Shown here piece after piece: positions 1-35,407 of a DNA stretch of 58,960 nucleotides; the first letter of the stretch is position 1, and each line of letters begins with the position of its first letter. The notes under the pieces were generated by a model. The model was given only the letters and a program-made list of their open reading frames with translations. It was not told the origin of the DNA and did not search any database. The translations under genes were made by a program, and so were the position numbers. The DNA is from Rhodospirillaceae bacterium (GTDB lineage: Bacteria > Pseudomonadota > Alphaproteobacteria > Rhodospirillales > Rhodospirillaceae), in contig JAQWQC010000012.1 of the NCBI GenBank assembly GCA_029245025.1, forward strand, positions 1 through 58,960, given 5' to 3'.

Positions 1-358
1 TGTAGGGATTGTCGAAGGCCTCAATCAGTTTTCCAGTTTCTAGGTCTGTGTAGAAAATAGCACTCATGCTTTTCGTGCTGTGGCCGCCATCTACATCTTC
101 GGTCACAGATAGAAAACCAACGTGCATATCCCAGAAAGGAATGAACTGGCTATCGAACAAGCCGTGCCGGATGGCTCGAATGTACCAATACACCACCCGG
201 TTATCGAAGGAATGATTGAGTTTTCTATGGATGACGTAGAGGTCGTCTGGGTCATGTGGATTTAACAGGTTTGTGGCTGCACCAACGGGCCTGGAAGTCA
301 GTGCTGTTCCTGCAAATGGTGCGGCTCCAATTAGGCCTAAGATGTGTCTGCGATCCAT
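1..358 (-). CDS. DUF1838 family protein, 5' part, cut by window edge
   Basis: Reading the minus strand from an ATG at 358 gives about 119 open codons that run off the left edge, so the C-terminus is missing. The N-terminus (MDRRHILGLIGAAPFAG) has a twin arginine followed by a hydrophobic stretch and a small-residue region, which suggests Tat export. The following part (DDLYVIHRKLNHS, VVYWYIRAIRHGL, FWDMHVGFLSVTED, SAIFYTDLETGKLIEAFDNPY) has the tryptophan/tyrosine-rich pattern I associate with DUF1838, a family of unknown function common in environmental proteobacteria. It lies 46 bases after the stop of the nitrilase-fold gene on the same strand, so the two are probably co-transcribed. Family assignment is from memory of the pattern; function is unknown. 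Confidence 0.7.
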   Translation of the reverse strand, partial: MDRRHILGLIGAAPFAGTALTSRPVGAATNLLNPHDPDDLYVIHRKLNHSFDNRVVYWYIRAIRHGLFDSQFIPFWDMHVGFLSVTEDVDGGHSTKSMSAIFYTDLETGKLIEAFDNPY

Positions 359-404
359 GACTAAATCCCTCAATCAGTTTTGGATTATAAAATAGCGGTG
401 TTTG

Positions 405-1544
405 TTACCAATTTCTTTTCTCTTTTATATAGCGTGCAGAATCTACCATGTCGGTCGGCAGATATTCTAAAGACAGGCCAGGGTCGATGGGTGGGCGGTA
501 CTTCTCATACACCGGCATGACCAGAGCCATCGGTACATCGGGGAGGCGGCGATTGCGTCGAAATTCAGCGATAGGGATGGTGGCCGAGACACTTTGCTCA
601 TACACGGATTTAGCGATACCAATGAGTTTTCCACCCGGACCATAAATACTGGTCCCTCCTGCGCCTGAGGCCCCTGTGTTATCGGGTGCAATCGATTGGT
701 TCATTGTTATCGTGTAGTTGTCATTGAACAACGACGCGGATTGAGAATCGACTTGATTAAAACCACCGGAGGAAAACCGAATGCTGATCTCGACGCCTTT
801 AAGGGCAATGGCACGGTGAATATCGGGGTCATACGGAGAGCAGAGTAGAGAGATATTGCCGATATCGGTGCGTGCTACGGGCAATACCGCGTCCTCCCCA
901 TACATCTCAATGTAGCGCGGTAAAACGTCGTAAGCCGATGTTGTGTACATCGTCCATCTCGGGTTTCTGCGAACGTTGTGTTGTTTCCAGTGATTGGCGA
1001 CCACTCGGCCATCCGGCCCGATAAGAATCCCGTTCAGCAACAAGTGACCGGGCCAATTTTCTTCATCTTTGACGTAGGATGCAAAAGCGATATAGCAGCC
1101 GTGCTCTTTCGCCTTTTTACCCAGTGCTTCTGTTTCAGGGCCTGGCACTTCGATGCAAACCTTGAGTGCTTCTTCACGGGTCCATGGTGCCCACCCCATT
1201 ATGGGTTGCTCAAAAAAGCCTACTAAATCTTGTTTGCCAGCGATGAAGCCGTTGTTTTGATCAACAAGATCCAGCATCCGTTGCAGATTACTCTCCATGA
1301 CCGGCTTGGGATTGTCGGCGTCGGCGGGGATCATGGGAGACTGTATCGCCCTAACTCGAATGGACTCTTTCTTTAGAGGGACCCTTTCATAGACGCCGTC
1401 TGGCGCGACACTGATATCGTTATCAATGGCGGCGTGAGCGTCTTCTGGTGTCATGCTTGCAGCAACGGCTGCAGCTGTTCCAACGCTGGCTGCCGTTCGT
1501 AAAGCGGCTCTACGGGTCAGAGTTGAATTGGTGTCGTCATCCAT
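405..1544 (-). CDS. Tat-exported nitrilase-superfamily carbon-nitrogen hydrolase
   Basis: About 379 residues. I chose the ATG at 1544 because GGAG lies about 8 bases upstream and the protein then opens with a Tat signal (TRRAALR plus an Ala/Val-rich segment to about residue 38); the open frame extends to 1673 but that leader looks non-coding. The nitrilase fold supports amide or nitrile C-N bond hydrolysis through Glu-Lys-Cys. Candidates are E112 (GFFEQP), K187 (NHWKQH) and C235 (ISLLCSPYDPDIHR). The loop around C235 is about two residues shorter than in aliphatic amidases, so substrate preference cannot be read. It is followed by the DUF1838 gene and is divergent from an exported aldo/keto reductase. 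A periplasmic location is inferred from the signal. A degenerate paralogue sits at 32056-33117. Confidence 0.78.
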   Translation of the reverse strand: MDDDTNSTLTRRAALRTAASVGTAAAVAASMTPEDAHAAIDNDISVAPDGVYERVPLKKESIRVRAIQSPMIPADADNPKPVMESNLQRMLDLVDQNNGFIAGKQDLVGFFEQPIMGWAPWTREEALKVCIEVPGPETEALGKKAKEHGCYIAFASYVKDEENWPGHLLLNGILIGPDGRVVANHWKQHNVRRNPRWTMYTTSAYDVLPRYIEMYGEDAVLPVARTDIGNISLLCSPYDPDIHRAIALKGVEISIRFSSGGFNQVDSQSASLFNDNYTITMNQSIAPDNTGASGAGGTSIYGPGGKLIGIAKSVYEQSVSATIPIAEFRRNRRLPDVPMALVMPVYEKYRPPIDPGLSLEYLPTDMVDSARYIKEKRNW

Positions 1545-1842
1545 TTTCTGCTCTCCGTCAGGTATCAAATTATTCTCGCGGCAATGAGCCAAATAACTGG
1601 GCGGCTTCTGCGCGGTGATGGATCGAGCATGGCTGATTGAGTGACTACGCGTCCATATAAATGCACGGAACAAGCGGGGTAGATGTTTAAGTGTTCGATC
1701 TGCGACTTTACGCTGAGTCCAATTTGGGATTTCTGCCTGATCTTGAGTATTTTCTATAGCCGCCTACTACCGACGGCCTAAATTAGATATCATCTTGTCG
1801 GCCAATCCGCCCAGCTGCGTAGTCTTTTTTGAGAGGATCAAC
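1545..1842. other. Divergent intergenic region, nitrilase/AKR
   Basis: 298 bases between two divergently transcribed, Tat-signalled enzymes. It must hold both promoters. I see a near-repeat of GTCGGCC/GACGGCC on either side of an AT-rich core around 1770-1803, but no convincing perfect operator. Confidence 0.4.
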
Positions 1843-2895
1843 ATGCTCTGTTTATCGCGCCGCCAAATTTTGAAAATCACTGCCGCAGCGACGGTTATTC
1901 CAGCACTGCCCTCCTTGAGTTCATCGGTGCGCGCTGGTGATGAGAAACGCACATTGGGTCTCGGAGGTCCCGTCGTGTCTGGAGTTGGCGTCGGGTGTAA
2001 CAACTTTGGTGGGCGGTTGGATGCGGCCGGGACGGATCGAGTAGTTCACGCTGCCGTGGCGAACGGCATTACTCTGTTCGATACAGCCGATGTGTATAGT
2101 GGTGGCCTGTCAGAAGAATATTTAGGTAAGGCGCTTGGCAAACGTCGCAACAAGGTCCTGATCGCGACAAAGTTTGGCGGCTCCATGGGGGCCGGTCCTT
2201 CCCCTGATGGCGGTGGTACGCGCGCCAACATCATGTATGCAGCTGAAGCGTCCTTGAAACGTCTCAATACGGATGTAATCGACATCTACCAATATCACCG
2301 ACCTGATGGGGTGACGTCGGCCGAGGAGACGCTACGGGCTTTAGATGATCTCGTTCAGCAGGGAAAAGTGCGCTACATAGGCAATTCAAACTTTGATGCC
2401 TCACAGGCCCGGGAAAGCGCAAGAATTTCAGCGGACGACGGACTTGCCAGTTACGTCTCAGCGCAGAATTACTACAGTCTTCTGACGCGAAATATTGAAG
2501 ACGAGTTGGTTCCTGCGTGCGAAGAACTTGGGTTGGGTGTGTTGCCGTTCTTCCCTCTGGAAAGTGGAGTGCTGACGGGCAAATACAAGCGAAATGAGGC
2601 GTTCCCCGAAGGGACACGCCTAGCCACCTTTGCGGCCCTTTCACCAGACTTAGCTGAACGCTTCATCAACGAGGAGCGTTTTAACAAAATTGATCAGCTG
2701 ACCGAACTTGCAGACGCGAACGGTGTTTCCCTGCTCAATTTCGCTTTCGGCTGGTTACTTAATAAGCCTTATATCTCAAGTGTTATTGCCGGTGCTTCCC
2801 GTGCCGAACACATCGAATCTAACGTTAAAGCGGCAGAATGGCGTCCGACGCCTGATGTGGATCGAGCGATTGATAGGATCACCCGCTCGGCTTAA
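1843..2895 (+). CDS. Tat-exported aldo/keto reductase
   Basis: 350 residues from the ATG at 1843, which has GAGAGG about 6 bases upstream; an in-frame ATG at 1795 lacks a ribosome site. The N-terminus SRRQILK followed by a hydrophobic Ala/Val segment is close to the Tat consensus. The mature part is a TIM-barrel aldo/keto reductase: the catalytic Asp and Tyr are in FDTADVYSGGLSE, the Lys in IATKFG and the His in YQYHRPD. Family members reduce aldehydes or ketones, or oxidise alcohols, with NADP(H). The C-terminal SSVIAGASRAEHIESN region fits the nicotinamide-cofactor site. Export of a soluble NADP(H) enzyme is unusual and suggests a cofactor bound before export. Divergent from the nitrilase gene. 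Substrate unknown. Confidence 0.85.
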   Translation: MLCLSRRQILKITAAATVIPALPSLSSSVRAGDEKRTLGLGGPVVSGVGVGCNNFGGRLDAAGTDRVVHAAVANGITLFDTADVYSGGLSEEYLGKALGKRRNKVLIATKFGGSMGAGPSPDGGGTRANIMYAAEASLKRLNTDVIDIYQYHRPDGVTSAEETLRALDDLVQQGKVRYIGNSNFDASQARESARISADDGLASYVSAQNYYSLLTRNIEDELVPACEELGLGVLPFFPLESGVLTGKYKRNEAFPEGTRLATFAALSPDLAERFINEERFNKIDQLTELADANGVSLLNFAFGWLLNKPYISSVIAGASRAEHIESNVKAAEWRPTPDVDRAIDRITRSA

Positions 2896-3034
2896 TCCCT
2901 TAGCCACCTGTTGGTTGCTTGTGTTCTAGCTGGTAAATAAAGTGCGGAAAACTGGGGCAGATTTGATCCAGACAGGCACTTAGAGTGTAAGATCAATATA
3001 ACAAAAGACCTTATCTGACGGGGGGATATTGACC

Positions 3035-4066
3035 ATGACGGACACCACACCTGATCAGCTTTCAACCGAACCCAAAAGGGTGATGAATAGCTCCTGGGGG
3101 CTGGCTGCGGGTGTGGCCTTCTGCGTTGGCTATACGGCGCTAATATATTTCCTGAAGCCCTACATGCCCCAGATCGACTTCGCGCCTGATACGGGGGCCT
3201 CCCACTATTATTGGAAACTCCCAGATCCGACATTTTGGTCTCGAGCGACAGCATGGGCAGGCTACATCCTTCATCAATGCACAATATGGGGCATGATCTA
3301 CTACGCCCAGAACACCAAGCTGTCGTACACCAAGGGTCTACACCCGATTAATATTTTAATTCTTGGTGCGAACGCTTTGTTTGTTCTGTTGCATCTGGTG
3401 CAAACACAGGTGTGGTATGATGGCACAGCGCAGGATACTCACATCATGACCTCCCAAGGGTCTGTGATCATCATGCTGGTGTTGATCTTGATAATGGAAA
3501 ACCAACGCCGGGGTCTGGTGTTTGGAAAGAAAGTAGGCTTTTTAGCGGAGCCCGGCCGGGCCGTTCGCAAATATCACGGTTACATCTTCTCTTGGGCCGT
3601 GATCTACACATTTTGGTACCACCCGATGGAAACATCTGTCGGGCATCTCATGGGTACGTTTTATACCTGCATGATCATGCTTCAGGGCAGCTTGATATTC
3701 ACTCGGGCGCACGTAAACAAATATTGGACAGCTTTTCTTGAGTTTTTTGTTGTCATACACGGCACAATTGTTGCGCTCATGCAGGGCAACGGACAATGGG
3801 GAATGTTCGCGTTTGGATTCCTCGCGATGTTTGTCATCACTCAGATGCATGGTCTTGGGTTGAAGCGCTGGCTGCGTTGGGCGTTCTTGGGCGCTTATCT
3901 GGCTGCGATTGGCATCGTGTATGGTGGGCGCGGCTGGCAAACTTTCGCAGAAATACCGCGTGTACCAATTGTCGAATATGCGCTTGTGTTTATATTCGGA
4001 GCGTTGATATGGCTCGGCATGTGGGTGCTGGCGCGGGTTGCAGGAACAGACCGCGCCCGGGCATAA
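3035..4066 (+). CDS. Polytopic membrane protein with many membrane-edge histidines, function unknown
   Basis: About 343 residues. The ATG at 3035 is preferred over a TTG at 3029 because the GGGGGA ribosome site then has about 8 bases of spacing. I count eight to ten hydrophobic segments. Histidines sit at or near helix ends: YILHQC, LLHLVQTQ, DTHIM, KYHGY, WYHPMETSVGH, RAHVNKYW, VIHGT and QMHGLG. Regular intramembrane His is typical of haem- or metal-binding membrane proteins, but no CxxCH or known cytochrome b pattern is visible. I do not recognise the family. It starts a same-strand run with a TLC/MFS-like carrier and two exported NAD(P)-binding proteins, so a membrane redox or transport role in that group is an inference. 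Confidence 0.75.
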   Translation: MTDTTPDQLSTEPKRVMNSSWGLAAGVAFCVGYTALIYFLKPYMPQIDFAPDTGASHYYWKLPDPTFWSRATAWAGYILHQCTIWGMIYYAQNTKLSYTKGLHPINILILGANALFVLLHLVQTQVWYDGTAQDTHIMTSQGSVIIMLVLILIMENQRRGLVFGKKVGFLAEPGRAVRKYHGYIFSWAVIYTFWYHPMETSVGHLMGTFYTCMIMLQGSLIFTRAHVNKYWTAFLEFFVVIHGTIVALMQGNGQWGMFAFGFLAMFVITQMHGLGLKRWLRWAFLGAYLAAIGIVYGGRGWQTFAEIPRVPIVEYALVFIFGALIWLGMWVLARVAGTDRARA

Positions 4067-4192
4067 CATTAGGACAACTTTGAGCTTCAAAATCCTGCGA
4101 CCATGCCATGGTTGTGGGCGAAAGAGGCTCGTCTTGAGCGCCAGAATCTGGCTATAGTCTGGATCACATTTTGTTTGATTTAGGCCCTTTAT

Positions 4193-5557
4193 ATGTCCCT
4201 AGCCGTTCATAGTTTCTTCCAGAAAACCGCGAAAATTGAGAGCCACGAACTCAGGGCAATCCTGGTTTCTTTCGTGTACTTGTTCTGCCTCATGGCGAGC
4301 TATTACACCATGCGGCCACTGCGGGACGCGCTGGCATCGGAAGTCGCGTCTGAGGACCTTAAGTTCTTGTGGACAGGCACCTTCGTCGCTTCAACCCTAG
4401 CGGCACTGGTATTTGGCTGGGTTGTCTCGCGCTTTAAGATTTCTTCCTGTCTGCCGTGGATCTACGGCTTTTTTATTATCAACATTGGAATTTTTTACGT
4501 GTTGATGGGGGGGTACCCCCTCGGCAGTACAGATACCATGACTGCGCCTGTTCTAAACGCGTGGCCCGTTGTGCTGGCGCCGGTGAAAGTCAGCACGGTT
4601 GTCGCCAGTGTTTACTATGTATGGCTTAGCGTCTTTAACATGTTTGTCGTCTCTGTTTTCTGGAGCTTCCTCGCCGATCGCTATTCCAAGGATCAATCTA
4701 AGCGGTTGTTTGGTTTTGTCGCAGCCGGTGGCAGTGCTGGCGCAGCACTCGGACCTCTCGCAACAGCTGCCATCGTAAATGATCTCGGCGTCGAGAATAT
4801 GCTGTTGATCTCGGCCATTGTCCTATCGATTACAATTTTTTGTATACGTGATTTGAATCAGCACACAACGGGCGGTCAATCAGTAGAAGCGCAGTTAGAG
4901 AAGGCGAAAGGTAAAGTCGGCGGATCATCCTGGTCGGGCTTTGCGACTCTGTTTAAAGACCCGTATCTCATGGCTATCGCTGTGTTCGTGATGCTGTACA
5001 CATTTATTTCTACCATTTTTTATGTGGCGCAGGTTGATTTGGTGCGGGCCGCATTTGAAACGCGTGAAGCACGCTATGCTGTGAATGCGATCGTTGATGG
5101 CATCGTCAATGGCTTAGCTATTTTCACCCAGCTTTTCGTGACGTCTCGTATCGCTGGACGTTGGGGCATGGTCTTTCTTTTGGCTTGCATGCCTGCATTC
5201 ATGATTTTTGCATTCTTTGCGTTAAGCGCATTCCCAGTGCTGATGATGATCTTGTCTCTTCAGGTTGTTCGTAGAGCCGGAAACTATGCGATGACGAGAC
5301 CGGGCCGAGAGATGCTGTGGACAGTTGTTGATCGAGATCGGAAATACAAAGCGAAGAACGTTGTTGATACGTCGGTTTATCGCGGCGCTGATCTCATTAA
5401 TATTTGGATCGAGAACGGCCTTCGCTCAGCTGGATTTGGGCTGGCCCAAATTGCGTTGGTTGGTTCCGGCGTCGCTGCCGCGTGGTGTGGCGTTTCAGTA
5501 TGGCTTGGTAAAACAGCAGAGAAACGCAAAACAGAACACCCAGGGTCTGCGAGTTAA
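4193..5557 (+). CDS. TLC/MFS-like carrier (NTP/NDP exchange transporter related)
   Basis: 454 residues with about twelve hydrophobic segments, an inner-membrane carrier. The N-terminal region has the ESHELRAILVSF and SYYTMRPLRDALA signature seen in bacterial homologues of the ATP/ADP translocase (TLC) group, often annotated just as MFS. Other landmarks are FGFVAAGGSAGAALGP in the middle and RPGREMLWTVVDRD near the C-terminus. True nucleotide exchange is established only for intracellular bacteria and plastids; free-living bacteria carry this subgroup with unknown substrates, so I do not claim nucleotide transport. It lies 126 bases after the histidine-rich membrane protein and 61 bases before an exported SDR gene on the same strand. 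Confidence 0.7.
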   Translation: MSLAVHSFFQKTAKIESHELRAILVSFVYLFCLMASYYTMRPLRDALASEVASEDLKFLWTGTFVASTLAALVFGWVVSRFKISSCLPWIYGFFIINIGIFYVLMGGYPLGSTDTMTAPVLNAWPVVLAPVKVSTVVASVYYVWLSVFNMFVVSVFWSFLADRYSKDQSKRLFGFVAAGGSAGAALGPLATAAIVNDLGVENMLLISAIVLSITIFCIRDLNQHTTGGQSVEAQLEKAKGKVGGSSWSGFATLFKDPYLMAIAVFVMLYTFISTIFYVAQVDLVRAAFETREARYAVNAIVDGIVNGLAIFTQLFVTSRIAGRWGMVFLLACMPAFMIFAFFALSAFPVLMMILSLQVVRRAGNYAMTRPGREMLWTVVDRDRKYKAKNVVDTSVYRGADLINIWIENGLRSAGFGLAQIALVGSGVAAAWCGVSVWLGKTAEKRKTEHPGSAS

Positions 5558-5618
5558 TGTATTTAGCAACTGGACTAATTATTTAATAACTAAGTTTATC
5601 AAAGGGATGGAGCACTCA

Positions 5619-6404
5619 ATGTTGAAATCTTTATCAATATCGATACTGGCAGCAGTGGCGATCTCAACCTCAGCCTTAGCGGCAGATCTTGTGGTTGTTG
5701 TCGGCGGCACGGGTGGTACCGGCTGGGAAACGGTCAAAGAGGCAATGGCGCAAGGTTATGAAGTTCGCGCAACAACCACTAACGTGGAGCGGGCAACAGA
5801 AAACAAAGGCGACGATGGCTTAACGTGGGTCAAGATGGACGCCCGTATTCCGGATGACATTCGCAAGGCATTCGCTGGCGCTGACTATGTTATCTCCACG
5901 CTCGGTGGATCTTGCTTTGATCCAGGCGGCCCGAGGTCTGCTCGCCACGTCGATTTTCAAGGCGTTGTTAACATGGCCGGCATCGCCAAAGATTATGATG
6001 TAAAGATGTTTGTTCTAACATCAGCTCTTGGCGCGGGAATCCCTGATCAACCACTGAACCAATTCTGTGACAATGTTCAGATGTGGAAATGGTTGGGCGA
6101 GGACTACCTGCGTGATGGCGATTTGCCATACTCAATCATCCGACCGGGTGGACTAGGTAATGATGAAGGTGGGAAACAAGGCATCACGCTTGCGGCTGTC
6201 GGTGAACTTAAAACTAGCTTCATTCAGCGTGCTGATGTTGCAAAGGTTCTGGTCGAAGCGCTAACCAACAAAGATGCTGCTGGTAAGACAATTGCAATCG
6301 GCGGAGACTCAAACAGTAAGCCGGACGAGTGGCGTGATGATTTTGCGTCCATCCCAGTTGATGCGGCGCAGGCGCCACCGCTGCGCCCTGGTCAGGGCGA
6401 ATGA
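5619..6404 (+). CDS. Secreted NAD(P)-binding SDR/NmrA-like protein
   Basis: 261 residues from the ATG at 5619, which has GGAG 6 bases upstream and gives a clean N-terminal signal (MLKSLSISIL...TSALAA, cleavage about residue 22). An ATG at 5607 is in frame but weaker, and the open frame further upstream only overlaps the preceding gene. Immediately after the signal comes a Rossmann motif GGTGGTG (about residues 29-35), then an atypical SDR core with DYVISTLGGSC, KMFVLTSALGAG and YSIIRPGGLGND. These proteins bind NAD(P)H and act as reductases or sensors. There is no twin arginine, so Sec export is likely, which is odd for a dinucleotide binder. The stop overlaps the next start (ATGA at 6401), indicating translational coupling with its paralogue. 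Confidence 0.75.
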   Translation: MLKSLSISILAAVAISTSALAADLVVVVGGTGGTGWETVKEAMAQGYEVRATTTNVERATENKGDDGLTWVKMDARIPDDIRKAFAGADYVISTLGGSCFDPGGPRSARHVDFQGVVNMAGIAKDYDVKMFVLTSALGAGIPDQPLNQFCDNVQMWKWLGEDYLRDGDLPYSIIRPGGLGNDEGGKQGITLAAVGELKTSFIQRADVAKVLVEALTNKDAAGKTIAIGGDSNSKPDEWRDDFASIPVDAAQAPPLRPGQGE

Positions 6405-7165
6405 TATCAAGACGGCGGTTTTCACAGGCCGTATTTGGTATAGCGACAATTGGGGCGGCTCCACAGCGTGGAGCCGCTCAGTCGCAGGAGCTGATACTCG
6501 TAGCGGGGGCGACAGGGCGGACAGGCCGTTTTGTTGCTCAAGACCTACTAGACTCTGGTCATGCGGTACGCGGATTAACCCGCAACCCGGATCGTGCACG
6601 GGACCGGTATGGAGATGATGTGGAATGGGTTGAGGGAGATGTGCGTGATCGGGCATCTCTGCGTCCTTTGTACATTGGTTGCGACCGGGTTATTTCGGTG
6701 CTGGGGGCTACGGAACGGTCCGGTGAGAACACTCCTGAGGCAGTTGAGTACAACGGCAATGTAAACCTGATTGATCAAGCGAAAGAGAGCGGACTTAAAC
6801 AGGTGGTAATGATCACCTCCTTGTCTGCCGGGCGCGCCGATTCAGACCCAGATTTGGTTGCGCGCTTCACAGGGATGCTTTGGAAAAACAAGGCTGAGCA
6901 TTACCTCAGAGACAGCAATATTCCTTACACGATTGTCGGACCGGGTGGGCTAAGAGACTATGAGCCGCGTCTCCAGGGGATTTGGTTTCAAAGCGAAGAC
7001 AATATTACGGTTGGAACAATTTCCCGGGCAGATGTTGGTGCTGTGATGGCCGAAGCCGCCCGCAATCCAGCGGCACTCAACAAGACTCTTCGCATCATTA
7101 ATGATCCGGAACGACCTATTGATGGATGGAGAGATGCGCTTTCACAGGTACCGCTTGACTCCTAA
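6401..7165 (+). CDS. Tat-exported NAD(P)-binding SDR/NmrA-like protein
   Basis: 254 residues starting in the ATGA overlap with the preceding paralogue. The N-terminus MISRRRFSQAVFG is a Tat signal, with a mature start around residue 26. GATGRTG (about residues 36-42) is the dinucleotide-binding loop, followed by CDRVISVLGATE, KQVVMITSLSAG and a YTIVGPGGLRDYE segment matching IIRPGGLG in the partner. The two share the same domain and probably arose by duplication; they may form a heterodimer. Role unknown; export of a folded, cofactor-loaded protein by Tat is plausible. Converges with the YheT-like hydrolase, whose stop is only 2 bases away. Confidence 0.78.
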   Translation: MISRRRFSQAVFGIATIGAAPQRGAAQSQELILVAGATGRTGRFVAQDLLDSGHAVRGLTRNPDRARDRYGDDVEWVEGDVRDRASLRPLYIGCDRVISVLGATERSGENTPEAVEYNGNVNLIDQAKESGLKQVVMITSLSAGRADSDPDLVARFTGMLWKNKAEHYLRDSNIPYTIVGPGGLRDYEPRLQGIWFQSEDNITVGTISRADVGAVMAEAARNPAALNKTLRIINDPERPIDGWRDALSQVPLDS

Positions 7166-11969: not shown

Positions 11970-12069
11970 ATCAACGTCGCACACCCCAACTCACTGCAAC
12001 ACAATACAAACTAGTGTCTTGTCCGATAAAAAATGTACGGGCGTCGTCGTCGTTTAGATCAGTTTTGCG

Positions 12070-18276: not shown

Positions 18277-18279
18277 GGG

Positions 18280-19570: not shown

Positions 19571-19579
19571 CGGTCTGAC

Positions 19580-21436: not shown

Positions 21437-21447
21437 AGGAAACATCG

Positions 21448-21828: not shown

Positions 21829-21837
21829 GACTGCGGA

Positions 21838-24067: not shown

Positions 24068-24253
24068 AGCCGCACTTTGACCAGCGCCGACCGCAGGTCA
24101 AGAATCATTTTCAACTATTTTAGTCTCAGGCATTTAATGGTCAAAAAAGGAAAGGCAGTGGCTGACTGTTTTCAGGCCGTGCTTTTTCTGGATGGTGGTG
24201 GCATAGTCCGCGCGTTTTCGGACCGTATTCACGTTTAGACCGCCAAACATCTT

Positions 24254-25930: not shown

Positions 25931-25933
25931 CGC

Positions 25934-26959: not shown

Positions 26960-26961
26960 GA

Positions 26962-27996: not shown

Positions 27997-28059
27997 GTGT
28001 GGAATTCTCCAGTCTCAGCTATCGCATCCTACCGCAGCGTGGTCATTCGGCAACCCGCA

Positions 28060-28074
28060 GATTGCTGAGCAATC
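28060..28074. promoter_or_regulatory. Candidate operator 1, VOC / amine oxidase divergent region
   Basis: GATTGCT-G-AGCAATC, a perfect 15-base dyad about 90 bases before the amine oxidase start and 60 bases before the VOC start. Confidence 0.4.
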
Positions 28075-28112
28075 GCTGGCCTTTACCCTGTTCGCGGATC
28101 GCCTCACAATCA

Positions 28113-28126
28113 TGTCCATATGGACA
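28113..28126. promoter_or_regulatory. Candidate operator 2, VOC / amine oxidase divergent region
   Basis: TGTCCATATGGACA, a perfect uninterrupted 14-base palindrome 36 bases upstream of the amine oxidase ATG, where a repressor would block a promoter. It differs in sequence from the palindrome at 28060-28074. Confidence 0.45.
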
Positions 28127-28161
28127 GTTTTTGAGCACGTTTTAAAAGGGAACTATCGACC

Positions 28162-29619
28162 ATGAGTAAGTACTACTTCAGTCGCCGGACGGCACTTAAA
28201 AGCGCCGGGGCAGCCGCCATCACCACAAGCATTGGTGTTGGCATGGCCCCTCGGTCGGTGCGGGCACAAAACGATTCAGACGTGCTCATTATCGGCGCCG
28301 GTCTTTCAGGTTTGGCGGCCGCTCATGTGCTGCAGGATGAAGGGTGCAGCGTTCAAGTGATTGAAGGTCGGGGTCGCATCGGTGGGCGTGTCTTGTCTCT
28401 GAGCGATATACCGGGCAACCCGGAAGCAGGTGGCAACGGCATCGGTGGTGGCTACGGGCGAGTGATCGATGCGGCTGAGCGCTTTGGGGCTAAGCTCAAC
28501 AACATAATTGATCGTGCTCCCCTTATTCTGAATCGAAGTCTGTTTCTCGATGGCCAAATGATAAGCCAGGAAGATTGGCCCAGCCATCCGCGCAACGTGC
28601 TACCCGAACAATTCAAAGAAATGATGCCTTGGTCGTTTGTACCTATCTTTATCATTCAGAATAACCCTCTTGATTCCTATGAAGATTGGTACGATCCCAA
28701 GACGGCACCATTTGATATCTCAGTGCACGAATGGTTCCGATCCAAGGGGATAACAGACGAACAGATCAATCTCGCGTACAACATCAACTCAGACTTTGGA
28801 AACTCGTCTCACGACGTTTCTGCGCTCATGCTGATGTTTGTCTACGCGTGGGGAATGATGCAGCGGTCTAATGTCCCGCGCGCGACCTACGCTGCCATAG
28901 GAGGCAACCAGCGTATTCCAGAAGCAATGGCGGCTGCCCTTAAGAATGAAGTGCATCTGGGACGTAAAGTGATGGGCATAAGTAGCGATGATTCTGGCGC
29001 AGAGGCGCACTGCGATGACGGCACTGTATATCGTGCTAAGCGGATTATTTCTTCTATTCCGTTCTCGGTATTACGCACCATGAAGATTGAACCCGGCCTT
29101 TCAGGTGTCCAGCACCAGGCAGTGCAGACGTTGGGCAAACAATTGCTTACCCAATCTCATTTGGTGGCGAAGGAACCGTTCTGGGAAGAAGACGGCAAGC
29201 CCATTGGCATGTTCTCAGATAGTGTCCTTGGCAATGTGATGGCGCAGCATTTCGGAGATAGGCCCGAAGAAGTCACAAGTATCACTTGTTGGCACCGTGG
29301 CTGGAAAGCGCAACAAGTTGACCAGCTGCCTGAAGAAGACGCCAAGCAAATGGTGCTCGATACTTGGGCTGAGCAGCGCCCGGCATCAAAGGGCAAGCTT
29401 GAAGTCGCTGGCTTTAAGTCTTGGTACAATGACCCGTTCTCGTCCGGTGACTGGGCGGTCTGGAAGCCAGGTCAGATTAAAGATTTCATCGGCAAAATGT
29501 CCGAGCCTCACGGTAATTTGCATTTCTGCGGCGAGCATACGGCACTTTCTAATCGTGGTATGGAAGGCGCCATGGAATCAGGTGAGCGTGTGGCTTTCGA
29601 GGTGATGGATGCAATCTAG
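28162..29619 (+). CDS. Tat-exported flavin-containing amine oxidase (first of pair)
   Basis: 485 residues. Tat signal FSRRTALKSAG with mature start after VRAQ (about residue 36). The FAD-binding VLIIGAGLSGLAAA (about 41-54) and VIEGRGRIGGR follow. The C-terminal FAD motif is HFCGEHTALSNRGMEGAMESGERVA, typical of monoamine oxidase/L-amino-acid oxidase proteins that oxidise amines to imines with H2O2 release. The aromatic cage cannot be judged by eye. The next gene starts 11 bases before this stop and encodes a close paralogue, so the two are translationally coupled, perhaps as a heterodimer. Location should be periplasmic. Confidence 0.88.
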   Translation: MSKYYFSRRTALKSAGAAAITTSIGVGMAPRSVRAQNDSDVLIIGAGLSGLAAAHVLQDEGCSVQVIEGRGRIGGRVLSLSDIPGNPEAGGNGIGGGYGRVIDAAERFGAKLNNIIDRAPLILNRSLFLDGQMISQEDWPSHPRNVLPEQFKEMMPWSFVPIFIIQNNPLDSYEDWYDPKTAPFDISVHEWFRSKGITDEQINLAYNINSDFGNSSHDVSALMLMFVYAWGMMQRSNVPRATYAAIGGNQRIPEAMAAALKNEVHLGRKVMGISSDDSGAEAHCDDGTVYRAKRIISSIPFSVLRTMKIEPGLSGVQHQAVQTLGKQLLTQSHLVAKEPFWEEDGKPIGMFSDSVLGNVMAQHFGDRPEEVTSITCWHRGWKAQQVDQLPEEDAKQMVLDTWAEQRPASKGKLEVAGFKSWYNDPFSSGDWAVWKPGQIKDFIGKMSEPHGNLHFCGEHTALSNRGMEGAMESGERVAFEVMDAI

Positions 29620-31045
29620 TACAGTAACGCGGCGCACTGCGCTTGCGACAGTAGGCGTAACATTGGCTGCATCGGGGTTAGTTCCAAAACCACTGCGGGC
29701 GCAAAACAGGACCGATGTTCTTGTTGTGGGCGCTGGACTGTCGGGTCTTAATGCCGCGTTGTTGCTCGAAGAACAGGGCTTCAAGGTACAGGTAATCGAG
29801 GGCCGTGACCGCATTGGTGGTCGGTTGCTTTCTCTTCGCGACATTCCTGGAAACCCTGAAGCCGGAGGTAATGGAATTGGCTCCGGCTATGGCCGGATGA
29901 TTGACACGGTTGAGCGTCTTGAAATTCCGATGCTTAATTCGGCTGGACGTGCCCAAATCACACCTTTCGAGCTGTATTTAGACGGTGAGCGTATTTCGGG
30001 TGAGCAATGGCCAACCCATCCGCGCAATATTTTGCCAGAGGCGTTCAAGGCCTTTAGCCCACGACTTGTTCCTTTGGTTTTGCTTCGACAAACAAACCCC
30101 TTAGCGTCTTTTGAAGATTGGTACGATCCGAAATCGAAACCACATGACATATCTGTATATGACGTATTCAAGAAAAATGGGTTCACTGACGATCAGATTG
30201 ACCTGACCTTTAACCTCAACGTGTCTTATGGCACGTCTGCCCACGACGTATCTGCCCTAATGATGTGGTTCAATGATGGTTGGGTTGCCTCTATGGAAGG
30301 AGGGCCGCCCACTCAGCTGTCTGCAATTGGTGGCAACATGACGATCCCGGAAACCATGGCAAAAGCGCTGAGCGGGGAAGTTCACTTGGAGCGCGAGGTT
30401 GTCGGGGTTCGTCAAGACGGTAATGGCGCAGAAGTCGTATGTGCCGATGGTACTGTCTATAAGGCAGACCATGTTGTCTCTTCATTACCCTTGCCGGTGA
30501 TGCGGTATATTAAGTTTGATCCATTTTTACCATCGGTTCAGTCCAAGGCGATTTCAATGGTGCCTTACTTCCCGATGACTCAAGTGCATCTGGTCGCCAA
30601 AGATCCGTTTTGGGAAGACGACGAGTGGTCGCCGGATATGTGGACTGATACTGTTGCGGGGCATGTGATTGCCAATCGACACAATGTTAACAACTCGGAT
30701 GTTACAAGCCTGACTGCCTGGGCGCGCGGATTTACGGCGCACAAATTAGATCAGGTAAGTCCAGAAGAAGGGATGGCTTGGGTCGTCTCGGAATTTGAAC
30801 GTATTCGCCCCAGCGCAAAAGGAAAGCTCGAATCCCGATATATTAAGTCTTGGATGCGGGATCCTTTTGCCGGTGGTGACTATGCAGTCTGGCAGCCGGG
30901 CCAAGTGACCGAGTTTCTTCATGCGACGGGTCAGGCGCATGGACGTGTACACTTTTGTGGTGAACACACCGCGCTGTCAAACCGAGGTATGGAGGGGGCG
31001 ATGGAATCCGGAGAGCGTGCAGCTTTCGAAATTATGAATATCTAG
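29609..31045 (+). CDS. Tat-exported flavin-containing amine oxidase (second of pair)
   Basis: 478 residues. Signal VTRRTALATVGVTLAAS, mature start about residue 31. FAD motif VLVVGAGLSGLNAA (about 37-50), VIEGRDRIGGRLL, and C-terminal HFCGEHTALSNRGMEGAMESGERAA. Shares long blocks with the upstream gene (DIPGNPEAGGNGIG, FEDWYDPK, HDVSALM), so a tandem duplication with divergence. Overlaps the preceding gene by 11 bases in another frame. Likely oxidises an amine or a related substrate in the periplasm. Converges with the lipocalin-like gene at 31047. Confidence 0.88.
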   Translation: MQSSTVTRRTALATVGVTLAASGLVPKPLRAQNRTDVLVVGAGLSGLNAALLLEEQGFKVQVIEGRDRIGGRLLSLRDIPGNPEAGGNGIGSGYGRMIDTVERLEIPMLNSAGRAQITPFELYLDGERISGEQWPTHPRNILPEAFKAFSPRLVPLVLLRQTNPLASFEDWYDPKSKPHDISVYDVFKKNGFTDDQIDLTFNLNVSYGTSAHDVSALMMWFNDGWVASMEGGPPTQLSAIGGNMTIPETMAKALSGEVHLEREVVGVRQDGNGAEVVCADGTVYKADHVVSSLPLPVMRYIKFDPFLPSVQSKAISMVPYFPMTQVHLVAKDPFWEDDEWSPDMWTDTVAGHVIANRHNVNNSDVTSLTAWARGFTAHKLDQVSPEEGMAWVVSEFERIRPSAKGKLESRYIKSWMRDPFAGGDYAVWQPGQVTEFLHATGQAHGRVHFCGEHTALSNRGMEGAMESGERAAFEIMNI

Positions 31046-31046
31046 C

Positions 31047-31742
31047 TTAAGGATTCCATGTGGTGGCGGTTTTAGTCATCGCTCCCAGTTCGTAGACGCT
31101 GCCTTCTTTATCACCACTGGAAACAAGCATACGGGCCAGCATGTGGTGGGGGCCTGTCCGCCACACGTGCAGCTCTTTGCCGAAAGATGTTGCCCAGATA
31201 AAGCGTTCGCAGTCAAACCGACCAGCTGGAAGGTCTAAGGTTTCTGTCCCGTCATACCTGGCTTCGCTAGGAATTTTTTCACCGTGGCCTAACGTGCGAC
31301 CGTTCCAGGTGTTGGAGACGGAATGCGGTAAAATTTTCTGCATCTCATTGGTCGAGGTGTCCATGAAACACATTTTCCACGAATCATGGATGATGTTGTG
31401 AAAGCCGATGGTCATGTGAGGCGGCGCGTCAAATTCTGCATAGTCGACATCGCCGTCCGGCGCAAAAACATATGAGTGAAGACGGTCACCTGTAAGTCGG
31501 CGTAACACCGAACCCTGTGGCTCACCCTTATAAAAAAGGCGACCGAGGCATTCGATTGGCCGCCAATCTGCGGCAACGGTCTGATTCACATCGCGTAGCA
31601 GGTCACCTTTAGGTGACTGCGTCACTGTGCGAAGCGTGCGAGAGCCACCAGGATTGGCGGTGAGCAGGAACCGCTCATACATCTGAGGGCTACCGCTAGG
31701 CTCGGTTATTAAAATATGTCCTTCGTAGATGTCGAAACTCAT
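31047..31742 (-). CDS. Protein of unknown function, probably beta-rich
   Basis: 231 residues, no signal peptide. The sequence is rich in alternating strand-like segments: MYERFLLTANPGGSRTLRTV, RLHSYVFAPDGDVDYAEF, GTETLDLPAGRFDCERFIWAT, ELHVWRTGPHHMLARM. The ETLDLPAGRFDCERF then HVW...P pattern is reminiscent of DUF3108/DUF6134-like barrel proteins, which I cannot confirm. A lipocalin-like ligand-binding role is possible. It ends 2 bases after the amine oxidase stop on the opposite strand. Divergent from the second nitrilase-fold gene. Confidence 0.6.
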   Translation of the reverse strand: MSFDIYEGHILITEPSGSPQMYERFLLTANPGGSRTLRTVTQSPKGDLLRDVNQTVAADWRPIECLGRLFYKGEPQGSVLRRLTGDRLHSYVFAPDGDVDYAEFDAPPHMTIGFHNIIHDSWKMCFMDTSTNEMQKILPHSVSNTWNGRTLGHGEKIPSEARYDGTETLDLPAGRFDCERFIWATSFGKELHVWRTGPHHMLARMLVSSGDKEGSVYELGAMTKTATTWNP

Positions 31743-31849
31743 TGCCTAAACTTCGAAAGTGCGCTCAAATTTGGTTTGATTGAGTATACATAACTTGTTC
31801 CAGTTTGTCGGGTAGTTTGGGCTGATCGAAACATACAGACAAGGAATAG

Positions 31850-32032
31850 GCCACGAAAAACGCATCTAATCCTTTTGCTCACGCGACCCGCAGCGTGTGG
31901 ACCGTGGAAGGCGAAGATAGCTAGTCCTTCGTTATTTAAGATGTCGAGGCGGAAGACGGCCTTATCCTCAACGGTGCGCGCACGGTTGCCTTGTTACAGC
32001 AAAAGTCCCGCCTGGGGGCGGATAGTTCATAG
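31850..32032 (+). pseudogene. Decayed reading frame upstream of the second nitrilase-fold gene
   Basis: The 313-base gap 31743-32055 has no intact gene. On the plus strand one frame reads protein-like for 61 codons with two internal stops: NPFAHATRSVWTVEGEDS, stop at 31922, four codons, stop at 31937, then DVEAEDGLILNGARTVALLQ and on to a stop at 32030. The in-frame continuation across stops looks like a gene decayed by point mutations. The DGLILNGAR part is reminiscent of flavin-dependent monooxygenase or acyl-CoA dehydrogenase loops, but I cannot name it. Chance is possible. Confidence 0.3.
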
Positions 32033-32055
32033 AATCGCATTAGAGGGGTCGCCGC

Positions 32056-33117
32056 ATGTCAGATCCGAATACGACATTTACTGCCACGGCATTACAGATT
32101 GACTGTCACGCAGTGAACGGATGTGCTGACCGTGCAGAATCTTCCGCGCAGATGCTCAAACAGATTGAAAGTATGGGTGCTGCGATAAAGACTATTGATC
32201 TATTTACAATGGGCTTTAATGGAACGAAGACCAAACTGTTCGTGTTACCCGAATACTTTCTGTCTAGTTTCCCGATGGGGGAGCCTATTGCCCGGTGGCA
32301 AGAAATTGGGTCAATACCCATGGATGGACCTGAGTACGAAGCACTTGGCAAAATCGCTCAGTCCAATAACTGTTTTCTATCAGGCAATGTTTACGAAATC
32401 GACCCGAATTTCTCTGAACTCTACTTTCAGACGTGCTTTGTCATTGGATCGAGCGGTGATGTGGTGTTGCGCTATCGCCGATTGATCTCGCAGTTTGCAC
32501 CGGGCCCCTACGATGTGCTGGACAAGTACCTTGATCTTTACGGTGCTGAAGCAATTTTTCCAGTGGCGGATACAGAGATTGGTAAGATCGGCTGTGTGGC
32601 GTCGGAAGAAATTTTATATCCAGAGATATCTCGATGCCTTGCGATGCGGGGTATGGAAATTCTATGTCACTCGACATCTGAGGTTGGCGCACCAATGCTG
32701 ACACCGAAGGAAATTTGCAGACGAGCACGGGCGGTTGAGAACATGTGTTACGTTGTTTCATCAAACACGGCGAGCATCAAAGGGACACCGATCCCTGCAG
32801 AGTCCACGGGCGGGATGTCTAAGATCGTAGATTATAAAGGGTTAGTTTTGGCCGAGGCTTACACAGGCGAAACATTCTGTGCGAGCGCAATGCTAGACAT
32901 GGATAGTCTGCGTAAAGTACGCAAACATTCAGGCATGACCAACCTTTTGTCGCGTCAGCCTTTCGACCTTTATGCGCAGCAGTATGGCAGGCATACTTTT
33001 GTGGAGCCCAATGGAATGCTTGAGAATGGTGAGGTGAAGGTGCCGGGTCGCGCTTTCTTTGTTCAACGCCAGCAAGAGGTGTTAGAGCGTCTGGGTAAAG
33101 AGGGAATACTTTCGTGA
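32056..33117 (+). CDS. Nitrilase-superfamily protein lacking catalytic Cys and Lys
   Basis: 353 residues, no signal peptide, GAGGGG 9 bases upstream. The fold motifs are present: KLFVLPEYFLSSFPMG (Glu66), GDVVLRYRRLISQF, IGKIGCVASEEILYPEISR, and AMRGMEILCHSTSE. Aligned with aliphatic amidases, the catalytic Lys of KYRK is Arg142 and the catalytic Cys position is Ser183, with the correct spacing on both sides; a cysteine is found three residues earlier (C180). The catalytic triad thus reads Glu-Arg-Ser, so hydrolysis by the usual mechanism is unlikely. It could be a pseudoenzyme, binding or scaffold protein, or use a different chemistry. The Tat-exported paralogue (405-1544) keeps the triad. 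Confidence 0.82.
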   Translation: MSDPNTTFTATALQIDCHAVNGCADRAESSAQMLKQIESMGAAIKTIDLFTMGFNGTKTKLFVLPEYFLSSFPMGEPIARWQEIGSIPMDGPEYEALGKIAQSNNCFLSGNVYEIDPNFSELYFQTCFVIGSSGDVVLRYRRLISQFAPGPYDVLDKYLDLYGAEAIFPVADTEIGKIGCVASEEILYPEISRCLAMRGMEILCHSTSEVGAPMLTPKEICRRARAVENMCYVVSSNTASIKGTPIPAESTGGMSKIVDYKGLVLAEAYTGETFCASAMLDMDSLRKVRKHSGMTNLLSRQPFDLYAQQYGRHTFVEPNGMLENGEVKVPGRAFFVQRQQEVLERLGKEGILS

Positions 33118-33297
33118 GCAGAGTGGTAGATTTTACGCATAGTGCTGACGGTCGTATAATTGGCATTTCCATATGCGTGTTCAACAGAGGTGGGCAGCGA
33201 AGAGCGGTGTGAGGACCTCAAATAAAAAGATAAATTCGAATGGACACTTGATGAGACTGCGGATCACGGCAGGAGCTGTATTTTTTAGTGAGCCATC

Positions 33298-33651
33298 ATG
33301 ATCACAGCTCTTGTTACCTTTGATTCAAACCCAGATCGTCCAGAGATGTATCCTAAAGATAAACTGTCGCTCTATGAGATGATCGCACCAAAGTATCAAA
33401 ATATCCCTAGTTTGATATGTAATTATTTTATGGGCAGCGGAGACCTGGCAGGCGGTTGGTATGAATGGGACGCCATGGATGATGCGAAGGCTTATTACAC
33501 GCTAGCTTGGCGTCAATTCATAACGAAGGCATATGGCCCGATTCTAAAAATTGAAGACTTTGATTGCCCGTGCGCGATCGATACCACGTGTGGTGGAGTA
33601 TGTATCGTGCTGGAAGTCCGAGAAGCAGCAGAGAAAGACGCTACCCAATGA
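33298..33651 (+). CDS. YdhR-like ferredoxin-fold (putative monooxygenase) protein
   Basis: 117 residues. The segment LYEMIAPKYQNIPSLICNYFMG, then GGWYEWDAMDDAKAYY and KAYGPILKIEDFDCPCAID, follow the YdhR/ABM small dimeric alpha-beta barrel pattern: a strand, a helix, a GG-WYEW strand and a helix rich in A/Y. Such proteins are linked to oxidation or decarboxylation of aromatic metabolites, without cofactor in some cases. Cysteines near the end (CPC, TTCGGVC) are unusual. Its stop overlaps the next start (ATGA), indicating coupling with the NTF2-like gene. Confidence 0.68.
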   Translation: MITALVTFDSNPDRPEMYPKDKLSLYEMIAPKYQNIPSLICNYFMGSGDLAGGWYEWDAMDDAKAYYTLAWRQFITKAYGPILKIEDFDCPCAIDTTCGGVCIVLEVREAAEKDATQ

Positions 33652-34019
33652 GTAAGGAAAAGGTCAAAAAATTTCTACGTATTATGGAAGAGCGAGACCT
33701 TGAAGCCGCACGGACGTTTCTCGCGTCAGATTTTAGTATGACATTCCCTGGCGGCGTAACGATGATATCCCTCGACGAGCTGGTTGAATGGTCGATGGGC
33801 CGCTACAAATCAATCAGTAAAACTTTTGAGGGTTTTGATGAGTTCCAAGAAGGCGATGAAACGGTGGTGTACAGCACTGGAATGTTAAACGGGGAGGCTT
33901 TGGACGGCTCCGCGATCAGTGAAGTGCGATATATCGACCGGTTCGTGTTTCGTGACGGGTTGATGGTCGAGCAACAAGTATGGAACGACTTGGCTGATGT
34001 TCTGCCTAAGTCGCCTTAA
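33648..34019 (+). CDS. NTF2/SnoaL-like protein
   Basis: 123 residues, from the ATG in the ATGA overlap with the YdhR-like gene. Helix VKKFLRIMEERDLEAAR, DFSMTFPGGVTM and ISEVRYIDRFVFRDGLMVEQQVWND match the protein at 21448 strongly, so the two are paralogues although 12 kb apart. It precedes the FAD oxidase by 5 bases, making a three-gene unit YdhR-like / NTF2 / FAD oxidase. Likely a small-molecule-binding or isomerase-type protein. Confidence 0.78.
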   Translation: MSKEKVKKFLRIMEERDLEAARTFLASDFSMTFPGGVTMISLDELVEWSMGRYKSISKTFEGFDEFQEGDETVVYSTGMLNGEALDGSAISEVRYIDRFVFRDGLMVEQQVWNDLADVLPKSP

Positions 34020-34024
34020 TCTTA

Positions 34025-35407
34025 ATGGGTGACTTAGTAGCCGACTTCGCTGATGTCGTCGATAAGTCCGGCATTCTCACGGGCGATGACATTGGACCTC
34101 GCTACACGGATACCCGAGGGCATAGTCCCCCAGGAGTCCCTCTCTGTGTAGTGCGACCCGAGTCTACCGCTCAAGTGTCAGAGATTATGAAGCTATGTCA
34201 AGAAGTCGGACGACCTGTAGTGCCGCAAGGCGGAATGACGGGTCTCGTTGGTGGCGGCACGCCAGGCAACGGCGATGTTGTGTTGTCTTTGGAGCGCATG
34301 AACGCGATAGAACACATTGATCCTATTGGACGAACCATGATTGCCGAAGCAGGGGTCGTGCTCGAAACCGCACAAGGTTTAGCAGAAGAGTCAGGTTTTG
34401 TATTGCCAATTGATCTTGGAGCGCGGGGCAGTGCAACCCTGGGCGGGTTAATCAGCACGAATGCTGGCGGTAATCGCGTTATTCGCTATGGCATGACCCG
34501 GCAGTCGGTTCTTGGCCTGGAAGTGGTTCTTGCAGATGGGACTGTACTGACGTCCATGAACCGGATGCTGAAAAACAACGCCGGGTATGACCTGAAACAG
34601 ATGTTCATCGGATCAGAAGGCACGCTGGGTCTTGTCACACGTTGTGTGCTCAGACTACAGCCGAAGCCCCTGACCACCTTTACGGCATTCGTCGGCATCA
34701 ACGACTTTAAATCTGTATCCGAGTTTCTCGCTTTGCTCGACAATAAATTGGGTGGGGGGCTTGGAGCTTTCGAAGTGATGTGGTCGGAGTACTATAATTT
34801 TGTGAGCGACCACTGCCCGTCCTTAAAGCCCCCTTTGTCACCAGACTACACCTACTATGTCGTGACAGACGCGTTGGGGTCTGACCCAGAAGGTGATAAG
34901 GATCGCTTCGACGCAATATTGGAGATGGCGCATACGCAGGGGCTTATTCAGGACGGTGTTGTTGCACAGTCAGACAAAGAGCGTGACGAACTATGGGCTA
35001 TTCGGGAAGGCGCAGGTGAGGGGTTTCGCACTATTGCGCCCATGTTTACCTACGATGTCTCAATGCCAATCACCGCTATGGATGAATTTGCTTACCGTTC
35101 GATGGCTGATATCGAAAAAGAGTTCCCCAACGCCATTACTCTCATTCTCGGTCACCTCGGCGACGGGAATCTGCATGCGGTTGTATCGGTGCGCGATGGT
35201 TCTGACGCTGTGCATCGCAGGGTGAACGACATTCTATACGGCATCATTCGCGAGCTTGGTGGATCAGTCTCAGCTGAACACGGCATCGGTATAGAGAAGC
35301 GCGATTACTTGGACTGGAGCCGCACCGGCGCTGAGGTCGACGTTATGCGGATGCTCAAGCAGACTCTGGACCCCAAAGGGATTCTGAATCCGGGTAAAGT
35401 GATTTAG
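34025..35407 (+). CDS. FAD-linked oxidase, GlcD/D-2-hydroxyacid dehydrogenase family
   Basis: 460 residues, cytoplasmic. The FAD-binding PCMH domain is shown by VVPQGGMTGLVGGG, LGGLISTNAGGNRVIRYGMTRQSV and MFIGSEGTLGLVT. The C-terminal FAD-linked oxidase domain has LGHLGDGNLHAVV and VSAEHGIGIEKRDYL, where the His and Glu belong to the active site that binds metal in D-2-hydroxyglutarate or D-lactate dehydrogenases. It oxidises a D-2-hydroxy acid; the true substrate is unknown. Third gene of a coupled unit; converges with the HlyD adaptor gene, overlapping it by 4 bases. Confidence 0.88.
   Translation: MGDLVADFADVVDKSGILTGDDIGPRYTDTRGHSPPGVPLCVVRPESTAQVSEIMKLCQEVGRPVVPQGGMTGLVGGGTPGNGDVVLSLERMNAIEHIDPIGRTMIAEAGVVLETAQGLAEESGFVLPIDLGARGSATLGGLISTNAGGNRVIRYGMTRQSVLGLEVVLADGTVLTSMNRMLKNNAGYDLKQMFIGSEGTLGLVTRCVLRLQPKPLTTFTAFVGINDFKSVSEFLALLDNKLGGGLGAFEVMWSEYYNFVSDHCPSLKPPLSPDYTYYVVTDALGSDPEGDKDRFDAILEMAHTQGLIQDGVVAQSDKERDELWAIREGAGEGFRTIAPMFTYDVSMPITAMDEFAYRSMADIEKEFPNAITLILGHLGDGNLHAVVSVRDGSDAVHRRVNDILYGIIRELGGSVSAEHGIGIEKRDYLDWSRTGAEVDVMRMLKQTLDPKGILNPGKVI

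Follow-up and report, generated by a model that had tools for sequence, protein, structure and literature searches.

The window analysed here, a contig of 58,960 nucleotides (JAQWQC010000012.1, read on the forward strand), is the complete contig C11 of the 3.09 Mb, 36-contig genome of a Rhodospirillaceae bacterium (GCA_029245025.1), and three blocks of genes in its first 35,407 nucleotides (1-7165, 17368-22701 and 25067-35407) draw repeatedly on the same few enzyme families. We give a probability of about one half to the reading that these blocks are one catabolic cluster, held by a clade of aquatic 'Rhodospirillaceae' metagenome-assembled genomes (MAGs) and split by a later insertion of queuosine genes, and that this cluster works as follows. 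A nitrogen-containing compound would arrive in the periplasm, where two tandem flavin amine oxidoreductases (FAOs), aoA and aoB, exported by twin-arginine translocation (Tat), would dehydrogenate it, probably at a C-N bond, and would pass the electrons to a cytochrome c of the cluster, exported by the general secretory (Sec) route, and not to O2. Other exported members (an aldo/keto reductase, two NmrA proteins, a hydrolase and the nitrilase-fold protein nitA) would act in the periplasm in some strains, and the product would pass to the cytoplasm to be processed by DUF4437 bicupins, NTF2-like proteins, a vicinal oxygen chelate (VOC) protein, a C=C reductase, a GlcD-type oxidase and a second nitrilase-fold protein, nitB. 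The families, the putative export motifs, the residue replacements, the conserved linkage and the common phyletic pattern on which this reading draws are features of the sequences themselves; from them we infer the catabolic role, the electron acceptor and the order of the steps. Family calls are from Pfam scans of part of the window genes, 49 window proteins having been defined, and since the window is a complete contig, the left end of block 1 may be missing.

That the blocks form a single set is suggested first by their linkage in relatives, whose corresponding contigs were fetched and their open reading frames (ORFs) compared with the window proteins, a gene being counted as present at no less than 25% of its self score (genome G002 stands outside the resulting table, and a distant cupC of genome G029, at 133 bits, was counted absent because it falls below this threshold). 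Five genomes of the same genus (g1) and one of g4 have most of the set wherever the stretches cover it, queuosine genes included; the stretches of G004 and G009 end before nitA and akr, and those of L106 and L107 are short, being truncated. At four loci outside g1 and g4, in genomes G011 and G029, a Baikal MAG contig (L106) and a single-cell contig (L107, isolate AG-426-B21), nitB and ntfC are linked at all four, aoA, aoB, cytc, glcD and mpo1 at three each, and cupC, ntfB, voc (G011 and L106) and abh1 (G011 and G029) at two each, the linked genes scoring 0.32-0.75 of their self scores. The queuosine genes (22707-24619; queE and queC on the minus strand, queD on the plus strand, with a PTPS match for queD and a Radical_SAM match below cut-off for queE) are linked at none of the four, three of which (G011, G029 and L106) cover the cupin-FAO stretch concerned. 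The best queC of both G011 and G029 lies on a contig other than that of the cluster, and queC identity is 33-38% in G011, G029, G022, G030 and G007 (g2, g6 and g17) as against 70-74% in G009 and G001; the assemblies of G022, G030 and G007 are more broken, and contig numbers there prove little about the placement of queC. As these genes are unlinked in other genera and their queC identity there is only 33-38%, we read the queuosine island as a probable insertion of this lineage, outside the system. Queuosine genes stand within the cluster in two genera only, and their queC differs from that of the other genera. A chance neighbourhood of the three blocks was considered and rejected, the queuosine genes, as an internal control, being unlinked across genera while the cluster genes are linked. 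The suspicion voiced in the first-pass annotation of this DNA, that the blocks are one interrupted set, is thus borne out as a single cluster split by the queuosine insertion; of the two interruptions it had named, the queuosine genes are one, whereas the efflux genes of the resistance-nodulation-division (RND) type may belong to the set, because one RND gene each is linked to the cluster in G011 and L107. In G011 this is an RND gene with its fusion protein, and in L107 another RND gene with a fusion protein.

A second line of evidence is the phyletic pattern. Among 61 related genomes (own genome included) a DUF4437 cupin query, an FAO query at E<=1e-30 and a nitB match below 1e-50 are each positive in 14, and these are the identical 14 genomes; weaker nitrilase matches occur in 51 of the 61. 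In a tree of MetK, a single gene, for the best-scoring 30 of these genomes with all 14 positives included, the positives form one group in which two negatives, G013 and G024, are nested, and these two have neither cupin nor FAO and only weak nitrilase matches. The pattern is compatible with one gain and two joint losses.

The FAOs themselves, aoA (28162-29619, plus strand) and aoB (29609-31045, plus strand, overlapping aoA), have the FAO fold, with nearly full-length PF01593 matches of 172 and 193 bits, respectively, and they match monoamine oxidase B (MAO-B) and L-amino-acid oxidases, aoB scoring 128 bits to MAO-B versus 50 bits to NicA2 (7c4a). In an alignment of 36 aoA/aoB rows of the clade, comprising 23 distinct sequences with a paralogue on C10 and three outgroups excluded, an RR pair stands shortly ahead of the FAD motif in every row, by pattern and eye, and no row has lysine in the flavin-N5 lysine column, which we take to be that aligned with Lys296 of MAO-B: Thr occupies it in 15 rows, as in aoA, Tyr in 13, as in aoB, His in five and Asn in three. 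The lysine is likewise replaced in all ten FAO genes of the own genome and in two Novosphingobium homologues, and is kept in the Arenicella homologue (L112). The cytochrome c gene cytc (16790-17197, plus strand; PF00034, CRSCH motif, Sec-like signal, 113 bits to solved cytochromes c) had been missing from the first-pass list, as had the Tat-type aldo/keto reductase at 1795-2895; a cytochrome c lies 2.4 kb from aoA in L108, and in L111, L151 and L297, which hold distant homologues, a TonB receptor, an FAO and a cytochrome c match adjoin one another. According to PMC12224317, FAOs that carry a Tat signal and have a Sec cytochrome c next to them proved to be dehydrogenases that use cytochrome c, the N5 lysine is nearly universal in FAOs, and its replacement by Glu may account for the slowest O2 reaction measured. 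The FAOs of the window, first designated flavin amine oxidases, may instead be dehydrogenases that work with a cytochrome.

The second unusual enzyme is nitB (32056-33117, plus strand; PF00795, 91.2 bits). Compared with solved nitrilases it keeps the fold and the catalytic Glu, with Ser aligned to the Cys and Arg to the Lys, and neither nitB nor the orthologues that were read show the Glu-Lys-Cys triad of the nitrilase superfamily. Among 23 relatives selected by E-value, 15 read Glu-Arg-Ser and seven Glu-Arg-Cys, the remaining row (L017) being in the wrong frame with its triad unusable. All of the best 80 of at least 559 matches in the collection read Glu-Arg-Ser, in which the Ser is partly by construction, because one of the two search patterns held SEE, and the Arg was not imposed by the pattern; 68 of these 80 lie outside the clade, by their record titles in Gammaproteobacteria, cyanobacteria, Cytophagales and others. 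In a tree of 67 sequences, including 20 of these 68, the Glu-Arg-Ser sequences group together (46 sequences, support 0.82) and do so again with the Glu-Arg-Cys ones (57, support 0.995), and the Glu-Lys-Cys paralogues stand apart from this group. By these alignments nitB is a member of a widespread clade with Arg and Ser in place of the catalytic Lys and Cys. That the changed site is so strongly conserved speaks for a function and against decay, and the replacement of Lys and Cys makes nitB unlikely to be an ordinary C-N hydrolase, the role it had been given at first; Ser-based hydrolysis, another reaction, or ligand binding only are the alternatives that it may represent. Within 6 kb of the 68 distant nitB genes are aldehyde dehydrogenase (29) and isochorismatase (12) genes, named by eye, and DUF1330 (25) and GntR (21) genes, each named from one scanned member. 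No description of a nitrilase-fold clade with replaced catalytic residues was found in those parts of the literature that our searches reached.

Against one catabolic cluster of this kind weigh a number of results that concern its unity, its electron route and its direction. As to unity, the 14 positive genomes, being related, are not independent cases. Across a sample of 190 genomes of the class, the own genome among them, two others carry the FAO at E<=1e-50 and five others the cupin at E<=1e-15, none of these having both, and it follows that the three-way coupling of FAO, cupin and nitB is a feature of the clade. Five of these seven genomes have a nitB match at E<=1e-30; three of the five matches are at 49-53% identity, and the other two genomes, with ten cupins each, have as their single match a nitrilase of two domains that lies 10-12 kb from a cupin. 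An FAO lies within 10 kb at only four of the 68 distant nitB loci, a DUF4437-type cupin at eight and the cytochrome c at two. The own genome holds 18 nitrilase genes (from 23 domain matches, including NAD synthase and Lnt, assigned by length and place), ten FAO genes with three tandem pairs among them, and 11 cupin matches. In favour of the cluster, the combination returns elsewhere in this genome, with a nitA homologue, DUF1838, FAO, FMN split barrel, NmrA and cupins at C3:1-22000; an FAO stands with three cupins at C10:1-20000. Under random placement, with loci collapsed manually and with NAD synthase, Lnt and a cupin fragment on C31 excluded, cupin-FAO proximity is above chance (two of five loci at 10 kb, three of five at 15 and 20 kb; p 0.002-0.016), a figure that includes the window itself, nitrilase-FAO proximity is not above chance (two of 13 loci, p 0.10-0.24) and nitrilase-cupin proximity is borderline (one to three of 13 loci, p 0.015-0.32).

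These figures bear on the alternative that the blocks are independent small operons in a paralogue-rich genome, whose conserved order would reflect ancestry only and no common pathway. The scattering of same-family paralogues, the chance level of nitrilase-FAO proximity, the loose coupling outside the clade and the patchiness of the accessory genes are all as this alternative would have it; the loss of linkage of the queuosine genes across genera, where nitB, ntfC, the FAOs, cytc and glcD kept theirs, is not, and neither are the joint presence of the cluster genes in 14 genomes and the fact that two nested relatives lack cupin and FAO together, and on balance we consider independent operons unlikely. 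Homologues scattered at random with no conserved neighbourhood had been named at the outset as the finding that would speak against a common system; within the clade linkage is conserved, and outside it the homologues are partly scattered. Apart from this, five nitrilase genes of the own genome have two nitrilase domains, three of them close together on C34 (65000-74000), with further sites at C12:21200-23000 and C20:85300-86800. A methyltransferase-domain protein of about 390 aa (L070:6250-7774), sometimes with a partner of about 100 aa, stands near cupins, nitrilases and FAOs; it has 17 further ORF matches in the fetched own-genome loci, and occurs in other alphaproteobacteria and, by eye, in Novosphingobium and Halieaceae.

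As to the electron route, the window cytochrome c lies 11 kb away from the FAOs, no CXXCH protein of 200 aa or less was present in the six stretches fetched around the other FAO genes of the own genome, and the export motifs were assigned by pattern matching and visual inspection, not by SignalP. In PMC12224317, Tat-only FAOs are fast with O2, the O2 reactivity of FAOs is hard to predict from sequence, and NicA2 and Pnao retain the lysine, so that its loss could also mean a substrate other than an amine. The window FAOs might then be ordinary periplasmic oxidases or desaturase-like flavoenzymes instead of cytochrome-c-linked amine dehydrogenases, as could be read from the missing lysine in all ten own FAO genes, the distance of the cytochrome c, and the best NCBIfam matches, which fall far short of the cut-offs and point to hydroxysqualene dehydroxylase and carotenoid desaturases. 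Such an identity fits poorly with the nearly full-length Amino_oxidase match, the matches to MAO-B and L-amino-acid oxidases, and a cytochrome c that is linked across genera and directly adjoins FAO homologues in three distant loci, and it too appears unlikely to us.

As to direction, exporters (HlyD, MacB/FtsX, ATP-binding cassette (ABC), MatE and major facilitator superfamily (MFS) genes) flank or sit in the set, and would suit a biosynthetic or detoxification cluster whose tailored or inactivated compound is exported by RND, MacAB-like, MATE and MFS pumps. The RND gene and fusion protein that remain with the cluster in L107 and G011 could be read in the same way, as could nmr3 (25067-25930, plus strand; PF05368, 107 bits), which matches a model for ergot-alkaloid biosynthesis at 72.8 bits, far short of the cut-off of 256.4 bits. 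No core synthase was seen among the scanned window genes, though, and homologues elsewhere stand beside TonB receptors, IclR/GntR regulators and acyl-CoA catabolic enzymes. Around the nitB of Arenicella (L112) are aconitase-type, YCII, cupin, arylmalonate-decarboxylase/maleate-isomerase-type, DUF1330, GntR, DUF1838 and FAO genes, together with two polysaccharide-deacetylase-type, isochorismatase, CoA-transferase III and HMGL-like (HMG-CoA-lyase-type) genes. On a plasmid of Novosphingobium humi (L257) about 34 kb separate an FAO from a cupin; TonB, cytochrome c, DUF1330 and aconitase-type genes lie in this interval, and the FAO is adjoined by a deacetylase-like gene that scores slightly under the Pfam cut-off. 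Two more Novosphingobium plasmids have the FAO-cupin pair 32-35 kb apart. The two stretches fetched from Novosphingobium plasmids had no annotated genes, and ORFs were read there. Because the Arenicella and Novosphingobium settings are catabolic, catabolism is favoured over biosynthesis, and a biosynthetic or detoxifying role seems to us decidedly unlikely. The degradation pathway proposed at the outset gains from the conserved neighbourhood in other genera, the common phyletic pattern and the catabolic settings of some homologues. A narrower version of the catabolic cluster, a new catabolism of N-heterocycles by lysine-less, cytochrome-c-linked periplasmic FAOs followed by DUF4437 bicupins and the cysteine-free Glu-Arg-Ser nitB, is an improbable one in our estimation; as a speculation, the Arenicella gene set would be in keeping with a ring that is opened to give a substituted maleate, as for pyrrole- or maleimide-like compounds, possibly tetrapyrrole fragments.

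The remaining members of the set were mostly recognised as first described: two nitrilase-fold, three DUF4437-type cupin, three NTF2-like, three NmrA and two FAO genes, as well as the VOC, FMN split-barrel, GlcD-type and two alpha/beta hydrolase genes, are confirmed by Pfam, and the tight packing holds, with ten of 15 same-strand neighbour pairs (one of which spans the queuosine gap) overlapping or within 15 bases. In block 1 lie nitA (405-1673, minus strand; PF00795, 53.6 bits), present in two of four g1 relatives whose stretch extends to its position; the aldo/keto reductase akr (1795-2895, plus; PF00248, 216.9 bits), in three of four relatives reached; a membrane-type protein (3029-4066, plus) with no Pfam match up to E = 1, which is conserved in the cluster and is found in six of ten compared sets, some of which end short of the gene; an MFS transporter (4193-5557, plus; PF07690); and the NmrA/NAD_binding_10 proteins nmr1 (5619-6404, plus) and nmr2 (6401-7165, plus; in three of five relatives reached), both called by Pfam. 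Between blocks 1 and 2 are abh1 (7167-8183, minus; alpha/beta hydrolase, PF00561), the Mpo1-like mpo1 (8283-8795, plus; PF06127) and two RND efflux genes with a membrane fusion protein (8808-16500, minus), of which 15409-16500 matches HlyD and the name RND is that of the first-pass annotation. Block 2 holds a second alpha/beta hydrolase, abh2 (17368-18276, minus; PF00561), fmn (18280-19158, minus; PF01613 (Flavin_Reduct) and PF08369; in three of six relatives reached), the SnoaL/NTF2-like ntfA (19130-19570, minus; PF13474) and ntfB (21448-21828, plus; PF14534 and PF12680), and the DUF4437-type bicupins cupA (19580-20425, minus), cupB (20588-21436, plus) and cupC (21838-22701, plus), all with PF12973 and PF14499 and all scoring above the Pfam cut-off for DUF4437/ChrR-type cupins. 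In fmn the PCP_red domain of protochlorophyllide reductases stands at the C-terminus of an FMN split barrel. Block 3 contains, besides nmr3, nitB and the FAOs, a CurA-like C=C reductase (25934-26983, minus; PF16884 and PF00107; NF058644 at 246.8 bits, below the cut-off of 440), voc (26962-27996, minus; PF00903 (Glyoxalase)), the SnoaL/NTF2-like ntfC (33648-34019, plus; PF12680) and the FAD-linked oxidase glcD (34025-35407, plus; PF01565 and PF02913; TIGR00387 at 268.8 bits, below cut-off). Patchy even among the closest relatives, nitA, akr, nmr2 and fmn are accessory.

Two names given earlier were not confirmed. For the DUF1838 gene the likely candidate is 31047-31742 (minus strand), for which Pfam gave no match even at E = 1, and a genuine DUF1838 protein (PF08894) used as query found no match among the 49 defined window proteins; the model of this candidate is all-beta, with an unconvincing fold comparison (best E 0.0014, TM 0.39), and DUF1838 was not found in the window by any of these searches. 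The 'YdhR-like' small protein (33298-33651, plus) likewise drew no match from Pfam at E = 1 or better, and its predicted model, at a mean pLDDT of 46, is too poor for a fold search.

By eye, nitA, akr, nmr2, aoA and aoB carry a Tat-type motif, and a Sec-like signal is seen on nmr1, abh2 and the cytochrome c, in both cases also in the orthologues listed; the RR motif of nitA lies near the likely real start and is seen in both orthologues, and that of akr, SRRQI, is found in three. No export motif was seen by eye on cupA, nitB, voc, the C=C reductase (adhN2), glcD, fmn or ntfA. The Tat-type NAD(P)-fold enzymes at 1795-2895 and 6401-7165, and their orthologues, would need to bring their cofactor with them into the periplasm. 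Downstream, 35404-58363 includes a MacAB-like exporter, a MATE pump and a TonB receptor, along with an ABC protein resembling type I secretion and an IclR-type regulator, neither of which reaches its NCBIfam cut-off, and tandem tRNA-Asn and tRNA-Cys genes lie at 51384-51540 on the minus strand.

If the catabolic reading is right, this would be an undescribed catabolic cluster of aquatic bacteria, the FAOs that feed respiration instead of O2 would be a wider class, and the analysis would point to a widespread, conserved nitrilase-fold clade with an altered active site; both enzyme claims, on the FAOs and on nitB, can be tested on single purified proteins. No description of this cluster or family set was found in the open-licence papers searched. 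The closest likeness is to the NicA2-CycN-Pnao system of nicotine degradation in Pseudomonas putida S16 and to related FAOs that use cytochrome c (PMC12224317); that system, too, unites in one gene cluster two FAOs exported by Tat and a cytochrome c exported by Sec. The window differs from it in the distance of its cytochrome c, in FAOs without the N5 lysine, in an aoB that by score is closer to MAO-B, and in that no nicotine-pathway genes were recognised in the window. With the nitrilase superfamily (PF00795; NitFhit, Nit2, aliphatic amidase) nitB shares the fold and the catalytic Glu, whereas in nitB and its clade Lys has become Arg and Cys has become Ser. The genome also recalls the SAR202 bacteria, a marine group in which a few enzyme families have many paralogues, expansions that are read, in PMC6946804 and PMC5395668, as breadth for resistant organic matter; the families there are flavin monooxygenases and enolases, and the main text of PMC6946804 makes no mention of nitrilase or cupin. 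Set beside these systems, the cluster reads as a variant of known catabolic clusters that carries two odd enzymes, its function and substrate being presumed.

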